64,000 nt of DNA, taken from the NCBI RefSeq assembly GCF_027923555.1, contig NZ_AP025523.1, forward strand, positions 1,802,484 through 1,866,483. The letters are read 5' to 3'. A model generated the notes under the pieces. That model searched no databases. It saw only the letters and a program-made list of their open reading frames with translations, and had not been told where the DNA came from. Below, one piece after another: positions 11,467-53,114 of the stretch. This stretch comes from Vulcanimicrobium alpinum (GTDB taxonomy: Bacteria; Vulcanimicrobiota; Vulcanimicrobiia; Vulcanimicrobiales; Vulcanimicrobiaceae). The position numbers and the translations under genes are program-made. Each line of letters opens with the position of its first letter. Positions within the stretch are counted from its first letter, which is position 1.

Positions 11467-12832
11467 AGTCAAGTCCCAAATCTGCTGTAATTCCGGTTCG
11501 TCGATCGCGTTAGTTAGGCTGCTCGTCTGTCTCGTTTTACGGCGGCCGGCTTGGCCACCGTCGTTGCTTTCCATTCGAAGTATTCGGTCATGTCGAAGTA
11601 GGCTCGGCCTAACCATTCGTCGTTTTGCTCGGAGAGTAGCGCGCCGACCATGCGAATCGCCGCGGCGTCGTTTGGGAAGATGCGAATGACTTTCTCCCGG
11701 CGACGAATCTCTTCATTGAGCCGCTCTTGCATGTTGCTCGTGCGCAGTCGCCGGCGATATTTCTCCGGCAGCGGCAAGATCGCAAGCATGTCTTCGAACG
11801 CTCCTTCCAAGCACACGCACGACTTGGGCGCCGTTTCTACGAAGCGGGCCATGAATTCCGCATATCGACGCTCGGCCTCTTTGCGATCAGTTGCGAGGAA
11901 GATCAGCCGAGCTGCAGCGGTTACGTTTTCGCGTTCTTTCTTGGGCGCGTGATCGAGCAAGTTCTTCATCACGTGGAACTGGCAACGCTGCCATGTCGCG
12001 CCGACGAATTGCTTGGCGATCGCCTCGCGTAAGCCCGAGTGATTGTCGGAGACGGCAACGTCGACGCCGTGCAAGCCGCGTGCTTTGAGGCCGCAAAAGA
12101 ACTCGTTCCACGTCGCAAAGCTCTCCGAATCGCCGATCGAAAGACCAAGGATCTCGCGGTATCCGTCAGCACGAATGCCGCTCGCGATGAGCAGCGCTTT
12201 GCTGACGACGCTCTTGTCGGTGCGCACCTTCGTGAAGAGCGCGTCAACGATGATGAATGGGTACGCTGCGTCGAGCCGGCGATTCAAGAATCCCGCGACC
12301 GGTTCGTTGAGTGCCTTCGTAAGGCGACTTACCGTCGATTTCGAAAACGACGTCCCGCAGAGGCCTTCGGTTATCCGCGTGACCTTCCGCGTCGAGACGC
12401 CGTTGACGACCATCTCCATCAGGCCCACGACGAAGGCTTGTTCGCTGCGGCGATAACGCTCGAAGATGTCGGTTGAGAAGCTGCCGTCGCGCGTCTGCGG
12501 CACGCGCAGGACCAGCGAGCCGACGCGGGTCGAGAGCTGTCGATCGCGATACCCATTTCGATAGCCCTCCCGTTCTTCACAGCGCTCGTACCGCTCGGCG
12601 CCCAGATGATCGCGCATCTGTGCCTCGAGCACTTGGTTGAGAATCACTTCGACGAGTTTGCCGAGCGCCGCCGGCTGATCAAGCAAAGCTGGAATCGCGT
12701 CGCGGGATAGGGTAAGATCGTAATCGGCCACCGTTTCGGTCCTTTCGATTGAGGTGTTGAACAACGTCAATCTTCGAACCGGGGCGGTGGCTACCCGCCC
12801 GCTCAATTTACATCAATTATACGGACTCGGCC
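11467..12832 (-). mobile_element. IS256-family element, copy 1 (complete, 1366 bp)
   Basis: On the minus strand the element opens GGCCGAGTCCGTATAATTG and closes with the complement of AGTCAAGTCCCAAATCTG. These are imperfect terminal inverted repeats very like IS256 ends. It carries one intact transposase gene. Its length equals the third copy at 14641-16005 within one base. It abuts a partial copy in the same orientation. Confidence 0.9.
11514..12731 (-). CDS. IS256-family (mutator-type) transposase, copy 1
   Basis: The 405-residue DDE transposase has the family's N-terminal GYRNGYRDR and VPQTRDGSF motifs. The catalytic core includes the Asp in IIVDALFTKVR and the second Asp in VAVSDNHSGL, followed by the CQFHVMKN Cys/His helix typical of IS256. 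The Glu lies in the NEEIRRREKVIRIFPN region. The GTG start (12729-12731) has AAAGGA about 7 bases upstream. A frame extending to 12806 exists only through a TTG that is absent in the other full copy, so the shorter start is preferred. The protein is nearly identical to copy 3, suggesting recent activity. Confidence 0.93.
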   Translation of the reverse strand: MADYDLTLSRDAIPALLDQPAALGKLVEVILNQVLEAQMRDHLGAERYERCEEREGYRNGYRDRQLSTRVGSLVLRVPQTRDGSFSTDIFERYRRSEQAFVVGLMEMVVNGVSTRKVTRITEGLCGTSFSKSTVSRLTKALNEPVAGFLNRRLDAAYPFIIVDALFTKVRTDKSVVSKALLIASGIRADGYREILGLSIGDSESFATWNEFFCGLKARGLHGVDVAVSDNHSGLREAIAKQFVGATWQRCQFHVMKNLLDHAPKKERENVTAAARLIFLATDRKEAERRYAEFMARFVETAPKSCVCLEGAFEDMLAILPLPEKYRRRLRTSNMQERLNEEIRRREKVIRIFPNDAAAIRMVGALLSEQNDEWLGRAYFDMTEYFEWKATTVAKPAAVKRDRRAA

Positions 12833-14640: not shown

Positions 14641-16005
14641 GGCAGAGTCCCTATAATTGATGTAAATTCAGCGGGCGGGTAGCCACCGCTCCGGTTCGAA
14701 GATTGACGTTGACAACACTTCAATCGAAAGGACCGGAACGGTGGCCGATTACGATCTTACCCTATCCCGCGACGCGATTCCAGCGTTGCTCGATCAACCT
14801 GCGGCGCTCGGGAAGCTCGTCGAAACGATTTTGAACCAAGTGCTCGAGGCGCAGATGCGCGATCATCTGGGCGCCGAGCGGTACGAACGCTGTCAAGAAC
14901 GGGAGGGCTATCGGAATGGGTATCGCGATCGACAGCTCTCGACCCGCGTCGGCTCGCTGGTCCTGCGCGTGCCGCAGACGCGCGACGGCAGCTTCTCAAC
15001 CGACATCTTTGAGCGTTATCGCCGCAGCGAACAAGCCTTTGTCGTGGGCCTGATGGAGATGGTCGTCAACGGCGTCTCGACGCGGAAGGTCACGCGGATA
15101 ACCGAAGGTCTGTGTGGGACGTCGTTTTCGAAGTCGACGTTCAGTCGCCTCGCGAAGGCCCTTGACGAGCCGGTCGCGGGATTCTTGAATCGTCGGCTCG
15201 ACGCGGCGTACCCGTTCATCATCGTTGACGCGCTCTTCACGAAGGTGCGCACCGACAAGAGCGTCGTCAGCAAAGCGCTCCTCATCGCGAGCGGCATTCG
15301 TGCTGACGGATACCGAGAAATCCTTGGTCTTTCGATCGGCGATTCGGAGAGCTTTGCGACGTGGAACGAGTTCTTTTGCGGCCTCAAAGCACGCGGCTTG
15401 CACGGCGTCGACGTTGCCGTCTCCGACAATCACTCGGGCTTACGCGAGGCGATCGCCAAGCAATTCGTCGGCGCGACGTGGCAGCGTTGCCAGTTCCACG
15501 TGATGAAGAACTTGCTCGATCACGCGCCCAAGAAAGAACGGGAAAACGTAACCGCTGCAGCTCGGCTGATCTTCCTCGCAACTGATCGCAAAGAGGCCGA
15601 GCGTCGATATGCGGAATTCATGGCCCGCTTCGCAGAAACGGCGCCCAAGTCGTGCGTGTGCTTGGAAGGAGCGTTCGAAGACATGCTTGCGATCTTGCCG
15701 CTGCCGGAGAAATATCGTCGGCGACTGCGCACGAGCAACATGCAAGAGCGGCTCAATGAAGAGATTCGTCGCCGGGAGAAAGTCATTCGCATTTTCCCAA
15801 ACGACGCCGCGGCGATTCGCATGGTCGGCGCGTTACTCTCCGAGCAAAACGACGAATGGTTAGGCCGAGCCTACTTCGACATGACCGAATACTTCGAATG
15901 GAAAGCAACGACGGTGGCCAAGCCGGCCGCCGTAAAACGAGACAGACGAGCAGCCTAACTTACGCGATCGACGAACCGGAATTACAGCAGATTTGGGACT
16001 TGACT
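14641..16005 (+). mobile_element. IS256-family element, copy 3 (complete, 1365 bp)
   Basis: Plus-strand copy opening GGCAGAGTCCCTATAATTG and closing TTTGGGACTTGACT. It is intact, with one transposase gene, and inverted relative to copies 1 and 2. The nine bases on its left (CAGGAACGT) and right (AGACGATGA) do not match. There is therefore no target-site duplication, and the genes on the two sides are different truncated genes. This points to an adjacent deletion or IS-mediated rearrangement after insertion. Confidence 0.92.
14741..15958 (+). CDS. IS256-family transposase, copy 3
   Basis: 405 residues, differing from copy 1 at only a few positions (for example KLVETIL for KLVEVIL and KSTFSRLAKALDE for KSTVSRLTKALNE). 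The same DDE core and CQFHVMKN helix are present. GTG start at 14741 behind GAAAGGACC. Complete and probably active. It could mobilise or recombine with copy 1. Confidence 0.93.
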   Translation: MADYDLTLSRDAIPALLDQPAALGKLVETILNQVLEAQMRDHLGAERYERCQEREGYRNGYRDRQLSTRVGSLVLRVPQTRDGSFSTDIFERYRRSEQAFVVGLMEMVVNGVSTRKVTRITEGLCGTSFSKSTFSRLAKALDEPVAGFLNRRLDAAYPFIIVDALFTKVRTDKSVVSKALLIASGIRADGYREILGLSIGDSESFATWNEFFCGLKARGLHGVDVAVSDNHSGLREAIAKQFVGATWQRCQFHVMKNLLDHAPKKERENVTAAARLIFLATDRKEAERRYAEFMARFAETAPKSCVCLEGAFEDMLAILPLPEKYRRRLRTSNMQERLNEEIRRREKVIRIFPNDAAAIRMVGALLSEQNDEWLGRAYFDMTEYFEWKATTVAKPAAVKRDRRAA

Positions 16006-45974: not shown

Positions 45975-46176
45975 CGCCGAAGGTCCCTCGAGTCCGTCGC
46001 CCTTAGGACTACCGGTGGCACGAGCCGGCCTGCGCGCTCATGACCGGCCATTTTCCAAACGGTATGCTTCTCGTTAACCGGAGGACCAGCCGCCTTCACG
46101 GGTCTGCTTCCCCTCACGCTGCGCGCGATGGGGCTTCCTTCGGTCTGCAATAGGAACGCCGCCAAAGGAAGATGCC
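45975..46176 (+). promoter_or_regulatory. Leader A: conserved 202-nt 5' region of lipoprotein gene A
   Basis: This block is repeated upstream of the second lipoprotein gene with the same length (202 and 203 nt) and scattered changes. Two hairpins can be drawn: AGTCC (45991-45995) with GGACT (46006-46010), and CACGAGC (46019-46025) with GCTCATG (46036-46042). A GGTCC near 45982 could also pair with GGACC at 46083. The last 90 nt, including AAAGGAAG before the TTG, are almost unchanged between copies. It may be a structured regulatory RNA. It does not match any riboswitch class I can recall. Confidence 0.4.
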
Positions 46177-47475
46177 TTGACTCGAAAACTTCGCTCGTTG
46201 TTCGCGTTCCGTCTGCCTCTGACGGCTTCGGCGTTTGTCATCGCCGTCTTGGCCGCCGGTTGCGGCGGAAGCGGCGTCAGCCACCAGACTTCCCCCGTTC
46301 CCCCGACCGGATCGACCGTATCGAGCACGGCGAAGTTTCCGATCCCGCAAAGCAAAGCGTTCGCCGTTCCTCGCGCGCCCAGCTTCGCCGTCCCCGCCGC
46401 ACCGCCGCCGCGCGACGCTGCGGGCTCGACCCGTTCGACGCAAAGCACGCCGTCGACCAACCCGTTCTTCAACGGCGAGCAGCCGCTCAGCAACGGCGTC
46501 TACTATCTGCAGTTCGCGAACAGCAACATCTTCGGCTACTACGCGTTCCTGAGCGATCCGCATTACATCTATCACTTCGACGCCGGATACGAGTACGTGT
46601 TCGACTCCACCGATCCGAACGCGGTCTACCTGTACGACTTCGCAAGCGGTCACTTCTGGTACACCGGCGCGAACCAGTGGCCGTACGTGTACGATTTCAC
46701 GCTGAAGGCGGAACTGTACTACTATCCCGACACGAACAACGCCGGCCACTACACGACCAACCCGCGCTACTTCTACAACTTCGGCACCAGCCAGGTCATC
46801 ACGATGCCGGCGTCCTCACCGAGCCCCAGCCCAACGCCGTCGCCGACACCGATCCCGATCGCCGCGACGACCACGACGCTCTCACGCGCATACCCCAACG
46901 CCGGAACGCCCAATGTGCTGCCGACCTTCAAGCCGCAGCTCGACCAATACGGCTACGGCATCACCATCGACGGCTACACGCCGGCGCCGAACATCTCGTA
47001 CGGATTCCATCGCAACGTCGTCGTCGCGATCATCAAAGACGGCACGCTCCTGCAGAATCCGGTCGGCGTCGGCCTTGTCAATCCGACGGTTACCCCTTGC
47101 GCTGCCGGTCCTGGAATGAACAATCCGTACGTGACGAACGACGACGAAGCCTATCAGATCCACGAGCACGATTACAGCGGCATCTGGATGCTTGAGCCGC
47201 ACAGTACGACGGAGACGTTCAAGCTCGGATCGCTCTTCGACATCTGGGGCAATCAGCCGATCGACCGGACCCATGTGGCGAACCAGACCGGCAACGTGCG
47301 CATCTTCTCATACGATTCGAACGCCGCAAACCCGGTCGCGACCGAGTACATGGGGAATCCCTACGACTTCGTGTTCGGATCGTTCAACGGAGACGTGACC
47401 ATCATCGAGATCGGGACCTTCGCACCGCTGCCGCACTTCGTGATCGACCCGAACTACGAAACCTTCTCCTGCTGA
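46177..47475 (+). CDS. Tyrosine-rich lipoprotein, copy A (432 aa)
   Basis: TTG start with AAAGGAAG 7 bases upstream. A signal peptide ends at a lipobox (VLAAGC, Cys near residue 29), predicting a lipid-anchored exported protein. Residues 90-205 are extraordinarily rich in Tyr and Phe and look like repeated beta-hairpins (YHFDAGYEYVFDST, YLYDFASGHFWYTG, YVYDFTLKAELYYY, YFYNFGTSQ). A Ser/Pro/Thr linker (SPSPTPSPTP) leads to a C-terminal domain (235-432) with HEHD at 329-332. No family is recognised. A terminator follows. Copy B downstream differs only at seven residues between 294 and 338. Confidence 0.8.
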   Translation: MTRKLRSLFAFRLPLTASAFVIAVLAAGCGGSGVSHQTSPVPPTGSTVSSTAKFPIPQSKAFAVPRAPSFAVPAAPPPRDAAGSTRSTQSTPSTNPFFNGEQPLSNGVYYLQFANSNIFGYYAFLSDPHYIYHFDAGYEYVFDSTDPNAVYLYDFASGHFWYTGANQWPYVYDFTLKAELYYYPDTNNAGHYTTNPRYFYNFGTSQVITMPASSPSPSPTPSPTPIPIAATTTTLSRAYPNAGTPNVLPTFKPQLDQYGYGITIDGYTPAPNISYGFHRNVVVAIIKDGTLLQNPVGVGLVNPTVTPCAAGPGMNNPYVTNDDEAYQIHEHDYSGIWMLEPHSTTETFKLGSLFDIWGNQPIDRTHVANQTGNVRIFSYDSNAANPVATEYMGNPYDFVFGSFNGDVTIIEIGTFAPLPHFVIDPNYETFSC

Positions 47476-47503
47476 CCCGACGAACGAACGTCGCAACACC
47501 ATG

Positions 47504-47540
47504 CTCCCCGCACGTCTCGGCGTGCAGGGAGTGTTTGTTT
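47504..47540 (+). terminator. Terminator after lipoprotein A
   Basis: Stem CTCCCCGCACG / CGTGCAGGGAG with one C-A mismatch and a short loop, followed by TGTTTGTTT. Weaker than its duplicate at 49157. Confidence 0.75.
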
Positions 47541-47627
47541 GGCCGCACGCGCAAATCCGTACCCGATCATTGAGCTTCTCCACCGGAGAACGGCGCGATC
47601 ACCGAGCCGACCGCGCGGCTCGCACGC

Positions 47628-47830
47628 CGCCGAAGGTCCCTCGGGTCCGTCGTCCTTAGGACTAGTGGCGGCATGAGCCGGTCCGCGCGCTCATGACTGG
47701 CCTGGTGTCGAGACGCTACGCTTCTCGGCAACCGGAGGACCAGGCGCTTTCACGGGTCTGCTTCCCCTCACGCTGCGCGCGATGGGGCTTCCTTCGGTCT
47801 GCAATAGGAACGCCGCCAAAGGAAGATGCC
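47628..47830 (+). promoter_or_regulatory. Leader B: conserved 203-nt 5' region of lipoprotein gene B
   Basis: Counterpart of the block at 45975-46176. Hairpin 1 is GGTCC (47644-47648) with GGACT (47659-47663), where an A-U pair of copy A becomes G-U. Hairpin 2 is CATGAGC (47672-47678) with GCTCATG (47689-47695), perfect here. Most differences from copy A lie in the first 110 nt. Confidence 0.4.
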
Positions 47831-49129
47831 TTGACTCGAAAACTTCGCTCGTTGTTCGCGTTCCGTCTGCCTCTGACGGCTTCGGCGTTTGTCATCGCCG
47901 TCTTGGCCGCCGGTTGCGGCGGAAGCGGCGTCAGCCACCAGACTTCCCCCGTTCCCCCGACCGGATCGACCGTATCGAGCACGGCGAAGTTTCCGATCCC
48001 GCAAAGCAAAGCGTTCGCCGTTCCTCGCGCGCCCAGCTTCGCCGTCCCCGCCGCACCGCCGCCGCGCGACGCTGCGGGCTCGACCCGTTCGACGCAAAGC
48101 ACGCCGTCGACCAACCCGTTCTTCAACGGCGAGCAGCCGCTCAGCAACGGCGTCTACTATCTGCAGTTCGCGAACAGCAACATCTTCGGCTACTACGCGT
48201 TCCTGAGCGATCCGCATTACATCTATCACTTCGACGCCGGATACGAGTACGTGTTCGACTCCACCGATCCGAACGCGGTCTACCTGTACGACTTCGCAAG
48301 CGGTCACTTCTGGTACACCGGCGCGAACCAGTGGCCGTACGTGTACGATTTCACGCTGAAGGCGGAACTGTACTACTATCCCGACACGAACAACGCCGGC
48401 CACTACACGACCAACCCGCGCTACTTCTACAACTTCGGCACCAGCCAGGTCATCACGATGCCGGCGTCCTCACCGAGCCCCAGCCCAACGCCGTCGCCGA
48501 CACCGATCCCGATCGCCGCGACGACCACGACGCTCTCACGCGCATACCCCAACGCCGGAACGCCCAATGTGCTGCCGACCTTCAAGCCGCAGCTCGACCA
48601 ATACGGCTACGGCATCACCATCGACGGCTACACGCCGGCGCCGAACATCTCGTACGGATTCCATCGCAACGTCGTCGTCGCGATCATCAAAGACGGCACG
48701 CTCCTGCAACTGCCGGTCGGCGTCGGCCTTGTCAATCCGACGGTTACCCCTTGCGCTGCAGGTCCCGGAATGAACAATCCGTACGTGACGGCCAACGACG
48801 AGGCGTACCAGATTCACGAGCACGACTGGGGCGGCGTCTGGCACCTCGAGCCGCACAGCACGACGGAGACGTTCAAGCTCGGATCGCTCTTCGACATCTG
48901 GGGCAATCAGCCGATCGACCGGACCCATGTGGCGAACCAGACCGGCAACGTGCGCATCTTCTCATACGATTCGAACGCCGCAAACCCGGTCGCGACCGAG
49001 TACATGGGGAATCCCTACGACTTCGTGTTCGGATCGTTCAACGGAGACGTGACCATCATCGAGATCGGGACCTTCGCACCGCTGCCGCACTTCGTGATCG
49101 ACCCGAACTACGAAACCTTCTCCTGCTGA
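47831..49129 (+). CDS. Tyrosine-rich lipoprotein, copy B (432 aa)
   Basis: Tandem duplicate of the gene at 46177-47475 with the same TTG start, lipobox, Tyr-rich repeats and linker. By eye the two genes are identical except in a patch of about 150 bases around the HEHD motif, where seven residues change (N294L, two near 322, then Tyr333Trp, Ser334Gly, Ile336Val and Met338His) along with many silent changes. An open frame upstream to 47693 is not needed. Likely also surface- or envelope-located. Confidence 0.8.
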   Translation: MTRKLRSLFAFRLPLTASAFVIAVLAAGCGGSGVSHQTSPVPPTGSTVSSTAKFPIPQSKAFAVPRAPSFAVPAAPPPRDAAGSTRSTQSTPSTNPFFNGEQPLSNGVYYLQFANSNIFGYYAFLSDPHYIYHFDAGYEYVFDSTDPNAVYLYDFASGHFWYTGANQWPYVYDFTLKAELYYYPDTNNAGHYTTNPRYFYNFGTSQVITMPASSPSPSPTPSPTPIPIAATTTTLSRAYPNAGTPNVLPTFKPQLDQYGYGITIDGYTPAPNISYGFHRNVVVAIIKDGTLLQLPVGVGLVNPTVTPCAAGPGMNNPYVTANDEAYQIHEHDWGGVWHLEPHSTTETFKLGSLFDIWGNQPIDRTHVANQTGNVRIFSYDSNAANPVATEYMGNPYDFVFGSFNGDVTIIEIGTFAPLPHFVIDPNYETFSC

Positions 49130-49156
49130 CCCGACGAACGAATTCGCAACGCAACG

Positions 49157-49189
49157 CTCCCCGTACGCCTCGGCGTGCGGGGAGTTTTT
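49157..49189 (+). terminator. Terminator after lipoprotein B
   Basis: A 12-bp stem (CTCCCCGTACGC / GCGTGCGGGGAG) with a CTCG loop, followed by TTTTT. Confidence 0.92.
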
Positions 49190-49348: not shown

Positions 49349-50815
49349 TTGGCTCCCGTCACGTCCGCCGGACCGTCGCGTCCGGCACCGTCCTTCGCGC
49401 CGTCGCCGCATGCGGTGGCGCGCGTATCGCGAACGATCGCCTTCCGCCACGACGTCCTTCCCCTCAACGTCGTCGACGGCGTCCTCGTCGTCGCAGTCCC
49501 CAATCCGGCCGACGAGCTCGTGCTGGACGCTTTGCGCGCGGCGACGCGTTTGCGGGTGCGGCCCTTGCCGCTCGCCCGCGACCTGATTCGCGAACAGCTG
49601 CGAATCGCGTACGGCGAGGCACCCGATGCGAGCGCGGAGAGCGCGCGGTCCGCCGACGCGCCCGCGGTGCGCGCGGTCGATCTCCTTCTCGCGCGCGCCG
49701 TCGCGGGGCATGCCAGCGACGTGCACATCGAACCGCAAGCGGGCGGCGGCGGACGCGTCCGCCTCCGCATCGACGGGATCCTGCGCGAGATCGAACCGGT
49801 GCCCGCCGACGTGTTCGCGGCGTTCACGTCGCGGTTGAAGCTGCTTGCGGGGATGGACATCGCCGATCGGCGGCAGCCGCAGGACGGACGCTGCGGCATC
49901 CCGTTCGAAGGACGTGAGATCGACGCGCGTGTCGCGTCGCTGCCGAGTGCCGACGGCGAGAAGATCGTGGTCCGCCTCCTCGACCGCTATGCGTCGGCCC
50001 CGGATCCGCGCGAACTCGGGATGCGCGGCGCGCTGCTCGAACGGTACGCCGCCGCGGTGCGCGCGCCGTGGGGATTCGTCGTCGTCGCCGGGCCGACCGG
50101 CAGCGGGAAGACGACGACGCTCTACGCCTCGCTCGCGCAGCTCGACGCGACGTCGCGCAACATCTGTTCGGTGGAAGATCCGATCGAGATGCGGCTCCCC
50201 GACGTGACCCAAGTGCAGGTCAACGTGCGCGCCGGGATGACGTTCCCGATCGTTGCGCGCGCGTTCATGCGCCAGGACCCGAACGTGGTCATGATCGGCG
50301 AGATGCGCGACGCGGAGACGGCGGCGGTCGCCGTCTCAGCATCGCTCGCCGGCCAGATCGTCTTCACCACCCTGCACGCCAACGACGCGCCGCGCGCGAT
50401 CGATCGCCTCGTCGAGCTCGGCGTCTCGCGGCACTCGCTCGCAGCGGCGCTGACGGCCGTGGCGGCGCAGCGGCTGGTGCGCAGGCTCTGCGAGCAGTGC
50501 CGCGCGCCGGAGCCGATTCCGCCGGCCGTGCGCTCCGCGGTCGGCGGCGCACCGGAGAGATGGTACGTTGCGGGCGGCTGCCGGACGTGTGCCGGAACCG
50601 GCTACATCGGGCGCATCGGCGTGTACGAACTGATGCACGTCGACGACGGCGTCCGCGACGCGATCGCCACCGGCGCGTCGAGCGTTCAGGTCGCGCAGCG
50701 TTCCGCGCTTGCCGGCTATCGCGCAATGGTTGAGGACGCGCTCGCCAAGGTCTTCGCCGGGACGACGACGTTCGAGGAAGTGCAGCGGGTCGTCGGGTGG
50801 GACGGGCCGCGATGA
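49349..50815 (+). CDS. pilB: Type IV pilus / type II secretion assembly ATPase (PilB/GspE)
   Basis: 488 residues from TTG 49349. A short N-terminal region precedes the ATPase core: Walker A GPTGSGKTTTLY, Asp box VEDPIE, Walker B VMIGEMRDAETA, the His box TLHANDAPRAIDRL and a tetra-Cys zinc motif (CEQC...CRTC). It powers pilin polymerisation at the inner membrane. Shorter than typical PilB because the MshEN domain is reduced. Its stop overlaps the pilT ATG. A 219-base AT-richer region upstream probably holds the promoter. Confidence 0.92.
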   Translation: MAPVTSAGPSRPAPSFAPSPHAVARVSRTIAFRHDVLPLNVVDGVLVVAVPNPADELVLDALRAATRLRVRPLPLARDLIREQLRIAYGEAPDASAESARSADAPAVRAVDLLLARAVAGHASDVHIEPQAGGGGRVRLRIDGILREIEPVPADVFAAFTSRLKLLAGMDIADRRQPQDGRCGIPFEGREIDARVASLPSADGEKIVVRLLDRYASAPDPRELGMRGALLERYAAAVRAPWGFVVVAGPTGSGKTTTLYASLAQLDATSRNICSVEDPIEMRLPDVTQVQVNVRAGMTFPIVARAFMRQDPNVVMIGEMRDAETAAVAVSASLAGQIVFTTLHANDAPRAIDRLVELGVSRHSLAAALTAVAAQRLVRRLCEQCRAPEPIPPAVRSAVGGAPERWYVAGGCRTCAGTGYIGRIGVYELMHVDDGVRDAIATGASSVQVAQRSALAGYRAMVEDALAKVFAGTTTFEEVQRVVGWDGPR

Positions 50816-51891
50816 GCCTGGGATCGATTCGCGTCCACGACCTCCTGCGCGCGGCGCGCGCCCGCCGCGCGAGCGACGTCCACTTCGGCGGTCTCGAACG
50901 CCCGGCGCTGCGCGTCGACGGACGGCTCGTCGGCGGCGACGCAGCGCCGATCGACGACGCGGCGGCGCGCGACTTTCTCACCGAGACCCTCGTACCGGAA
51001 CAGCTTGCGCGGCTCGACGCGCGCGGCACCGCCGACGGCGGAGCCGCGCCGGGTGCCGCGGGATCCCCGTATCGAGTGCACGCGTACCGGCACGCCGGCG
51101 GCGTGCGCGTCGCGGTCCGGCTCCTGGCCGAACGCATCCCGAGCCTCGATCAGCTCGGCCTCCCCGCGGCCGTCGCATCGCTCGCCGCGCGCGGCGCGGG
51201 GCTCGTGCTCTTTACCGGCCCGACCGGCAGCGGGAAGACGACTGCGCTCGCGGCGCTGATCGACCGCATCAACCGCACCGCCGAACGCACGATCTGCACG
51301 ATCGAAGATCCGGTGGAGTACGTCCACGTCCCGGCGCGCTCCCTGATCACGCAGTGCGAGATCGGCCGCGACGTCGCCGATTTCGACGAGGCGCTGCGCG
51401 GCTTCTTGCGCGCCGATCCGGACGTCATCCTCGTCGGAGAGATGCGCGATCGCGCGACGATGGAGGCTGCGCTCACCGCGGCCGAGACCGGACACCTGGT
51501 CTTCGCGACCCTCCACACCAACGATGCCGCGCAGACCGTCGATCGCATCATCGACGCCTTTCCGCCCGAAGCGCACGCGCAAGTCCGCAGCCAACTCGCC
51601 GCCGTGCTGGCCGCGATCGTCGCGCTGCGCCTCGTGCCGCGGCGCGACGGAGCGGGCCGGCGCGCCGCCGCCGAGATCCTCATCGGAACCGATGCCGTTC
51701 GCGCGCTGATCCGTGAGGGCAAGACGCACATGCTGCGCAACACGATCGTGACCGGGCGCGCGAGCGGGATGCAGACCCTGGAGACGCATCTCTGCGAACT
51801 GGTCGTGCGCGGCGAAGTGACGCTCGCGGACGCACAGGCCGTGTCGTCGCGGCCCGCGGAGGTGCGCGCTTTCGAGCGGAGCGCATCGTGA
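50812..51891 (+). CDS. pilT: Twitching-motility retraction ATPase (PilT)
   Basis: 359 residues. The N-terminal PAS-like PilT domain has RRASDVHFGGLERPALRVDG. The ATPase core has GPTGSGKTTALAAL, CTIEDPVEYVH, VILVGEMRDRATMEAAL, TLHTNDAAQTVDRIIDAFP and the C-terminal helix REGKTHMLRNTI. It depolymerises the pilus. Overlaps both neighbours (ATGA with pilB, GTGA with pilC), indicating coupled translation. Confidence 0.93.
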   Translation: MSLGSIRVHDLLRAARARRASDVHFGGLERPALRVDGRLVGGDAAPIDDAAARDFLTETLVPEQLARLDARGTADGGAAPGAAGSPYRVHAYRHAGGVRVAVRLLAERIPSLDQLGLPAAVASLAARGAGLVLFTGPTGSGKTTALAALIDRINRTAERTICTIEDPVEYVHVPARSLITQCEIGRDVADFDEALRGFLRADPDVILVGEMRDRATMEAALTAAETGHLVFATLHTNDAAQTVDRIIDAFPPEAHAQVRSQLAAVLAAIVALRLVPRRDGAGRRAAAEILIGTDAVRALIREGKTHMLRNTIVTGRASGMQTLETHLCELVVRGEVTLADAQAVSSRPAEVRAFERSAS

Positions 51892-53114
51892 GCGTGCCGG
51901 TCTTCCGTTACGCCGCGCGCACCATCGAGGGCGAGCTGGTTCGCGGTACGACCGAGGCGGAGTCCGTCGACGCCGTCCTTGCGGGCTTGCGCACGCGCGC
52001 GCTGTTCGTCACGGCCGTCGACCGCGAGACCGCGATCGCGCGCGGCGTCGGACGTTCGCTGCGGGCCGGAAGCCCGCGCCGGCGCGCGCTACTAGCGTTC
52101 TTTCGCTCGTTCTCGACGCTCGTCCGCGCCGGAATTCCGCTGCGCGGGGCGCTCAAGGTCGCGATCGAGCGGACGTCCGATGCGGCCCTGCGCGAAGCGT
52201 TGCGGTCCGTTCTCTCCGACGTCGAGCACGGCGCCTCGCTGAGCGACGCAATGGGCAAGCGCAGCCGTGCGTTTCCGAAGCTCTACGTGGCGATGATCCG
52301 CGCGGGCGAAGCGGGCGGCATCCTCGACGACGTGCTCGAGCGACTCGCGACGCTGCTCGAACGCGACGCGGAACTGCGCAAGAAGGTCCGCGCGGCGCTC
52401 GCGTATCCGGTCGTCGTCCTTCTCGCGGCATCAGGTCTGGTGCTGTTTCTGATCGCGCGCATCGTCCCCGCCTTCGCGCAGATGTTCGATTCGTTTCACG
52501 TCGAGCTTCCCGCGTCGACTCGCCTGCTGATCGCCGCCGGCGAGTTCTTGCAGCAGCCGGCCGCGTGGGCCGGAACGCTCGGCGGCGCCGCCGCACTCGC
52601 CCTCGCAACGCTGGCCCCCGCGCGCACCGAACGCGGGGCAGCCCTGCTCGATCGCGTGCGTCTGCACATCCCGGTCGCCGGTCCGCTGCTGCACAAAGCG
52701 ATCACCGCGCGGATCGCGCGGATGTTGGCGACGCTGCTGCGTTCGGGGATCGAGCTCGTCGGTGCGATCGCGGTCGTCGTTCCCGTCGCGGGGAGTCCGA
52801 CGTATGCCGCGGCCCTCCGACGCGTCGACGTCGCGCTGCGCGAAGGCGACCCGCTGACGGTGCCGCTCGAAGCGTCGCGACTCTTCGATCCGCTCGCCGT
52901 CGCGCTGATCCGCGTCGGCGAAGAGACCGGTCAGCTCGACGAGATGCTGCTCAAGATCGCTTCGTATTTCGAAACCGACGTCGAGGCGGCGATCGCGACG
53001 CTCGGCGCCGTGATGGAACCGGCGCTCATCTGCGCGCTCGGCGTCGTCGTCGGATTCATCGTGTTCTCCGTGTTTTTGCCGCTGTACGCTTTGATCGGAA
53101 ACGTCTCCAAATGA
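51888..53114 (+). CDS. pilC: Type IV pilus inner-membrane platform protein (PilC/GspF)
   Basis: 408 residues from GTG 51888. Two GspF repeats (about 65-190 and 270-390) each begin FFRSFSTLVRAGIPL-like or ARMLATLLRSGIEL. Three membrane helices are visible (about 175-198, 220-240 and 380-403). It couples the ATPases to the pilus base. The stop overlaps the start of the sigma-factor gene by four bases. Pilins and PilMNOQ are not in the window. Confidence 0.92.
   Translation: MSVPVFRYAARTIEGELVRGTTEAESVDAVLAGLRTRALFVTAVDRETAIARGVGRSLRAGSPRRRALLAFFRSFSTLVRAGIPLRGALKVAIERTSDAALREALRSVLSDVEHGASLSDAMGKRSRAFPKLYVAMIRAGEAGGILDDVLERLATLLERDAELRKKVRAALAYPVVVLLAASGLVLFLIARIVPAFAQMFDSFHVELPASTRLLIAAGEFLQQPAAWAGTLGGAAALALATLAPARTERGAALLDRVRLHIPVAGPLLHKAITARIARMLATLLRSGIELVGAIAVVVPVAGSPTYAAALRRVDVALREGDPLTVPLEASRLFDPLAVALIRVGEETGQLDEMLLKIASYFETDVEAAIATLGAVMEPALICALGVVVGFIVFSVFLPLYALIGNVSK

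Follow-up and report, generated by a model that had tools for sequence, protein, structure and literature searches.

Two adjacent genes for predicted tyrosine-rich lipoproteins, found in a window of 64,000 nucleotides from Vulcanimicrobium alpinum (contig NZ_AP025523.1), are probably old tandem duplicates whose coding region was recently homogenized by gene conversion. A single internal patch appears to be the unconverted remnant of their earlier divergence, and the encoded proteins are probably lipoproteins presenting a derived domain of the HTHD family.

The head-to-tail duplication described in an earlier note on this DNA is real: two complete genes of 432 codons each lie in the same orientation, and a repeat search combined with alignment gives a repeat spacing of 1653-1654 bp. 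The duplicated unit, proposed in that note as about 1.6 kb, extends from ∼45975 to 47536, and a leader and a terminator-like hairpin are present separately in each copy; the outer leader and terminator, diverged by ∼16%, had not been used as evidence (Table 1). In both copies, the TTG start is preceded by the Shine-Dalgarno-like AAAGGAAG. The second ORF formally begins with the ATG at 47693, and the TTG at 47831 is the start homologous to that of copy 1. The hairpin of copy 2 alone passes the terminator consensus scan, from which the hairpin of copy 1 is absent, and alignment between the copies ends in the spacers past the hairpins. A riboswitch or structured leader was considered and rejected, there being no Rfam match and the leader folding no better than shuffled sequences. 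No leader was found in common with the genes carrying the same N-terminal module in G006, a genome of the same genus. Directly downstream of the lipoprotein genes (49349-53114), three successive PilB-, PilT-, and PilC-like genes suggest a type IV pilus or type II secretion system. Elsewhere in the window, opposite ORFs at 11517-12806 (-) and 14741-15955 (+) have a near-identical stretch in common (VADYDLTLSRDAIPALLDQPAALGKLVE...) and resemble IS256-type transposases; they probably represent the same insertion element, present twice.

Table 1. Coordinates of the tandem lipoprotein genes and their segments, numbered from the first base of the window
Feature	Position	Strand	Description
Copy 1 5' leader	45975..46094	+	Diverged from its counterpart in copy 2, 47628-47748
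Homogenized tract 1	46095..47054	+	960 bp; 0 differences from 47749-48708
Copy 1 gene	46177..47475	+	TTG start, 432 aa
Copy 1 protein, domain order			Signal peptide with lipobox LAAGC (Cys29), Pro/Ala linker, Tyr-rich N-terminal domain, Pro linker, C-terminal HEHD domain
N-terminal Tyr/Phe-rich domain, copy 1	46465..46815	+	Residues ∼97-213
C-terminal HxH...HxHD..G..(H)xE domain, copy 1	46879..47472	+	Residues ∼235-432
Patch, copy 1	47055..47205	+	Read as unconverted remnant; counterpart 48709-48859
Codon 338	47188..47190 (copy 1)	+	ATG (Met) in copy 1, CAC (His) in copy 2
Homogenized tract 2	47206..47488	+	283 bp; 0 differences from 48860-49142
GC-rich terminator-like hairpin after copy 1	47491..47536	+	Diverged from 49144-49189
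Copy 2 5' leader	47628..47748	+	Aligned to copy 1 leader
Copy 2 gene	47831..49129	+	TTG start, 432 aa; architecture as copy 1; His338 kept
Patch, copy 2	48709..48859	+	Counterpart of 47055-47205
Copy 2 terminator hairpin	49144..49189	+	13-pair stem, T tail; fits terminator pattern

Divergence between the copies is stepped along the unit. The leaders are mismatched at 19 of 119 aligned bases (16.0%) and the terminator hairpins at 7 of 46 (15.2%), whereas not one of the 1,243 bases in the two intervening tracts differs, apart from a single internal patch, in which 23 of 151 bases do (15.2%). The earlier note had seen this patch, with its seven residue changes, and gave its length as about 150 bases; it measures 151 bp and begins at codon 293. 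Seven codons are altered (N294L, N321A, D322N, Y333W, S334G, I336V, and M338H, from copy 1 to copy 2), and ten more differ silently. That divergence is uneven across the gene, as had been claimed, holds firmly: the contrast between patch and tracts (Fisher p ∼1e-23) is not due to chance, and at the rate of the flanks the probability of zero differences in 960 bp is 3e-72. Conversely, the patch is no more diverged than the surviving flanks, leader and terminator pooled (26/165, 15.8%; Fisher p = 1.0), although the agreement could be partly fortuitous because these flanks may be constrained. Identical tracts lie beside stretches that keep an older divergence, the pattern by which a gene-converted pair is recognized.

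The uniformity of the tracts might instead reflect assembly, a hybrid assembler having collapsed scattered single differences while retaining a dense cluster. Strain WC8-2 of V. alpinum has a gap-free genome of 3.50 Mbp assembled by Unicycler from PacBio RSII and NovaSeq reads (PMC9758169). If the present genome is that of WC8-2, it is a Unicycler 0.4.8 hybrid of Illumina and PacBio RSII data (PMC9758169), and in such assemblies single differences that set nearly identical repeats apart may be lost. Sequence diverged by 15%, as in the flanks, would not collapse, however, so the true divergence of the tracts would still be far below that of the patch; PacBio reads are, moreover, normally longer than the 3.2-kb pair. 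An assembly effect is therefore very improbable.

The patch had been ascribed in the earlier note to conversion from a third relative. Gene conversion is retained here; the third donor is not. No third copy of the patch, and thus none of the further copies with the alternative patch that had been anticipated, was found in the single-contig genome of 3,508,363 bp, and this absence, together with the equal divergence of patch and flanks, makes the patch best read as a leftover of homogenization. Import would require that the unit was duplicated or homogenized and that one patch was then overwritten with sequence from a third relative, now absent or foreign, through conversion or transfer. The silent divergence of the patch (∼10/34) is somewhat above that of the flanks (26/165; Fisher p = 0.08), which leaves some room for a more distant donor, and GC3 in the patch of copy 1 is 0.70, compared with 0.80 in copy 2 and 0.83 in the gene. 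Against this, the 149 genomes of the phylum hold no close relative of the domain, the nearest being ∼30% identical. Furthermore, if the copies had been identical before a patch was imported, the equally diverged leader and terminator would need a separate cause, whereas old copies with recent conversion of the tracts provide one history for all five segments. Import is thereby weakened, and we regard it as quite unlikely. No genome other than this one was found to contain both copies.

Selection for variety in the patch, also raised in the earlier note, is not borne out. With a dS of 0.40 and a dN of 0.11, the patch has a dN/dS of 0.28, an ordinary purifying value over the time since duplication. 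Given this ratio and the missing third copy, the data call for neither import nor diversifying selection. A narrower form of selection is conceivable but doubtful: conversion may have spanned the gene, and recombinants with a homogenized patch may have been lost because the copies require different sites (Met338 in copy 1 versus His338 in copy 2). This scenario is compatible with partial homogenization and supplies a cause for the position of the remnant. In its favor, the island holds a His that is invariant in 52 of 52 relatives, as well as the core HxHD..G..H motif, and codons 329-338 are covered by only 11% of random placements of a 151-bp island within the gene. Yet neither this figure nor the 14% of placements that touch HEHD is unusual, so the location of the patch by itself is no proof of selection. 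Any unconverted 151 bp from a pair diverged by 15% would contain about as many changes, and the dN/dS of 0.28 indicates no excess of amino acid replacements. Among the seven changes, however, the one at residue 338 stands out: the His that is invariant in the relatives is Met in copy 1.

Partial homogenization of an old tandem pair, with the patch as its remnant, is thus preferred. Under this reading, the whole 1.65-kb transcription unit, consisting of leader, lipoprotein gene, and terminator, would have undergone an ancient tandem duplication, after which the two copies would have diverged by ∼15%. Later RecA-type recombination between the neighbors, amounting to gene conversion in at least two tracts or in one patchy tract, would have made tracts 1 and 2 identical and spared the island with the old divergence. 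The products would be secreted lipoproteins in which a lipid-anchored, Tyr-rich beta domain serves as a stalk or presentation module for a derived, His-rich, probably metal-binding HTHD domain; because Met338 and His338 persist, the binding sites of the two copies probably differ.

The lipoprotein character is suggested by the translated N-terminus, a signal peptide with a lipobox ending in Cys (LTRKLRSLFAF...VIAVLAAGC). Alignment of the N-terminus with relatives yields a mean column identity of 57%, the lipobox Cys29 included. The following domain is rich in aromatic residues, with 19 Tyr and 12 Phe in the 120 residues from 96 to 215 (∼26% Tyr/Phe). The earlier note found that the protein fits no family, and indeed neither domain is represented in Pfam or NCBIfam, a Pfam hit to Crass_capsid (E 0.12) falling below the cutoff and being attributable to chance; however, the C-terminal family is present in most genomes of the phylum, and the N-terminal module is recurrent in one sister genome. 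Within the phylum, the N-terminal domain was recovered in only 2 of 149 genomes, genome contigs having been scanned separately by exact peptide words: twice here and in 13 genes of G006, loci that are also found in JAQBPK01, a “Candidatus Eremiobacterota” metagenome-assembled genome. No significant PDB sequence match was found for this domain, and no relatives of the proteins were found in phages or viral contigs.

In all 13 G006 genes, the Tyr-rich domain is N-terminal and the C-termini differ. One C-terminus matches Peptidase_S8 (subtilase; E 4e-46), and those of two neighboring genes match Vgb_lyase (E 2e-118 and 1e-95). Weaker matches are to Peptidase_M30 (subthreshold) and Peptidase_A4 (just above the cutoff), and others are to Big_2 (Ig-like) and NHL-like repeats. 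A predicted lipid-anchored head common to all these genes, followed by tails of different kinds, points to a modular presentation domain. The neighboring Vgb-lyase-like pair (L043 1354-5114, G006:C53, and L033), both members of which combine the Tyr-rich domain with a Vgb-lyase-like propeller, is ∼71% identical over 1.7 kb and so is not homogenized. Structure prediction had been proposed in the earlier note. The AF2 model of the N-terminal domain is all-beta with eleven strands and is compatible with beta-hairpin repeats, at a confidence too low to be reliable (pLDDT 57), and a Foldseek search with it returned no match; the model of the C-terminal domain (pLDDT 29) offers no usable structure for the putative metal site.

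The aligned pattern HxHxH ... C-x-YW-x-HTHD-x-x-G-x-x-HxE ... WG characterizes the family to which the C-terminal domain belongs, and the profile of this family matches 107 of the 149 phylum genomes. The profile, built with both window copies included, covers the whole domain at E 5e-55 and 1.7e-54 (the latter for copy 1), and the plain sequence matches relatives at E 1e-10. None of the family members scanned scored above the cutoffs of Pfam or NCBIfam, and the domain has no significant sequence match in the PDB. Among 52 aligned relatives, two Cys and four to five His are invariant or nearly so, a His pattern from which metal binding is probable. The Cys pair, present in 52/52 relatives, is replaced by Pro and Glu in both window copies, which also lack one His found in 51/52; within the conserved His set (HxH, HxHD, and HxE), copy 2 keeps four of five and copy 1 three. 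Both copies lie on a very long branch (1.38), and the domain is perhaps a re-purposed form of the family. The HTHD gene neighborhood provided no functional lead, a paralogue in the same genome being located near genes that resemble BlaI and branched-chain amino acid transporters (judged from ORF starts). Weak HTHD matches also occur in Burkholderiales plasmids. On a Paraburkholderia sprentiae plasmid (L065 5176-6417), one protein carries two HTHD domains, the first short of several His (TYAH, HTVD, and HMD) and the second canonical, so that canonical and degenerate forms once more stand side by side. More tandem pairs of HTHD lipoproteins were observed in other genera (L005, G047:C35, and L022, G015:C3), that of L005 without a homogenized tract.

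This mosaic clearly records a natural case of incomplete gene conversion between neighboring genes. Its host is probably the first bacterium to be cultured from a little-studied phylum, and the case illustrates that what looks like a “variable patch” may be a remnant rather than a hot spot. Of greater interest than the patch is the protein, in which two uncatalogued domain families are combined: one occurs in the majority of the phylum's genomes, and the other is a modular lipoprotein head that may organize cell surface enzymes in these bacteria. A bolder proposal, which we consider unlikely as a whole, is that the two copies keep different HTHD sites by selection (His versus Met at one ligand position) while the rest is homogenized and that, in addition, the Tyr-rich domain serves Eremiobacterota as a hitherto undescribed, lipid-anchored module for the display of many effectors, including subtilase, Vgb-like lyase, Ig-like, and HTHD domains and those with weak M30-like and A4 peptidase matches.

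Known systems offer several parallels. In interlocus gene conversion of tandem paralogues, as reviewed for concerted evolution (PMC3924818), same-orientation neighbors have sharp-ended identical tracts between diverged stretches, as is the case here. The duplicated PE_PGRS pair of tubercle bacilli is a bacterial case (PMC1762029). Unlike such systems, the present pair is seen in one genome with one internal remnant, and the direction and timing of the tracts are not traceable. With the uncatalogued HTHD family of Eremiobacterota, the window copies have in common the framework of G, P, G, Y, HxHD, G, xE, and WG; they depart from it by the loss of two Cys and one His, in copy 1 also of His338, and by fusion to the Tyr-rich N-terminal domain. 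Finally, the Tyr-rich domain, in contrast to the modular surface lipoproteins of other bacteria, is uncatalogued and confined so far to two species among the 149 phylum genomes, but it resembles them in design: a common N-terminus is combined with varied C-terminal modules, just as in G006 one lipoprotein head is joined to several enzyme or binding modules.
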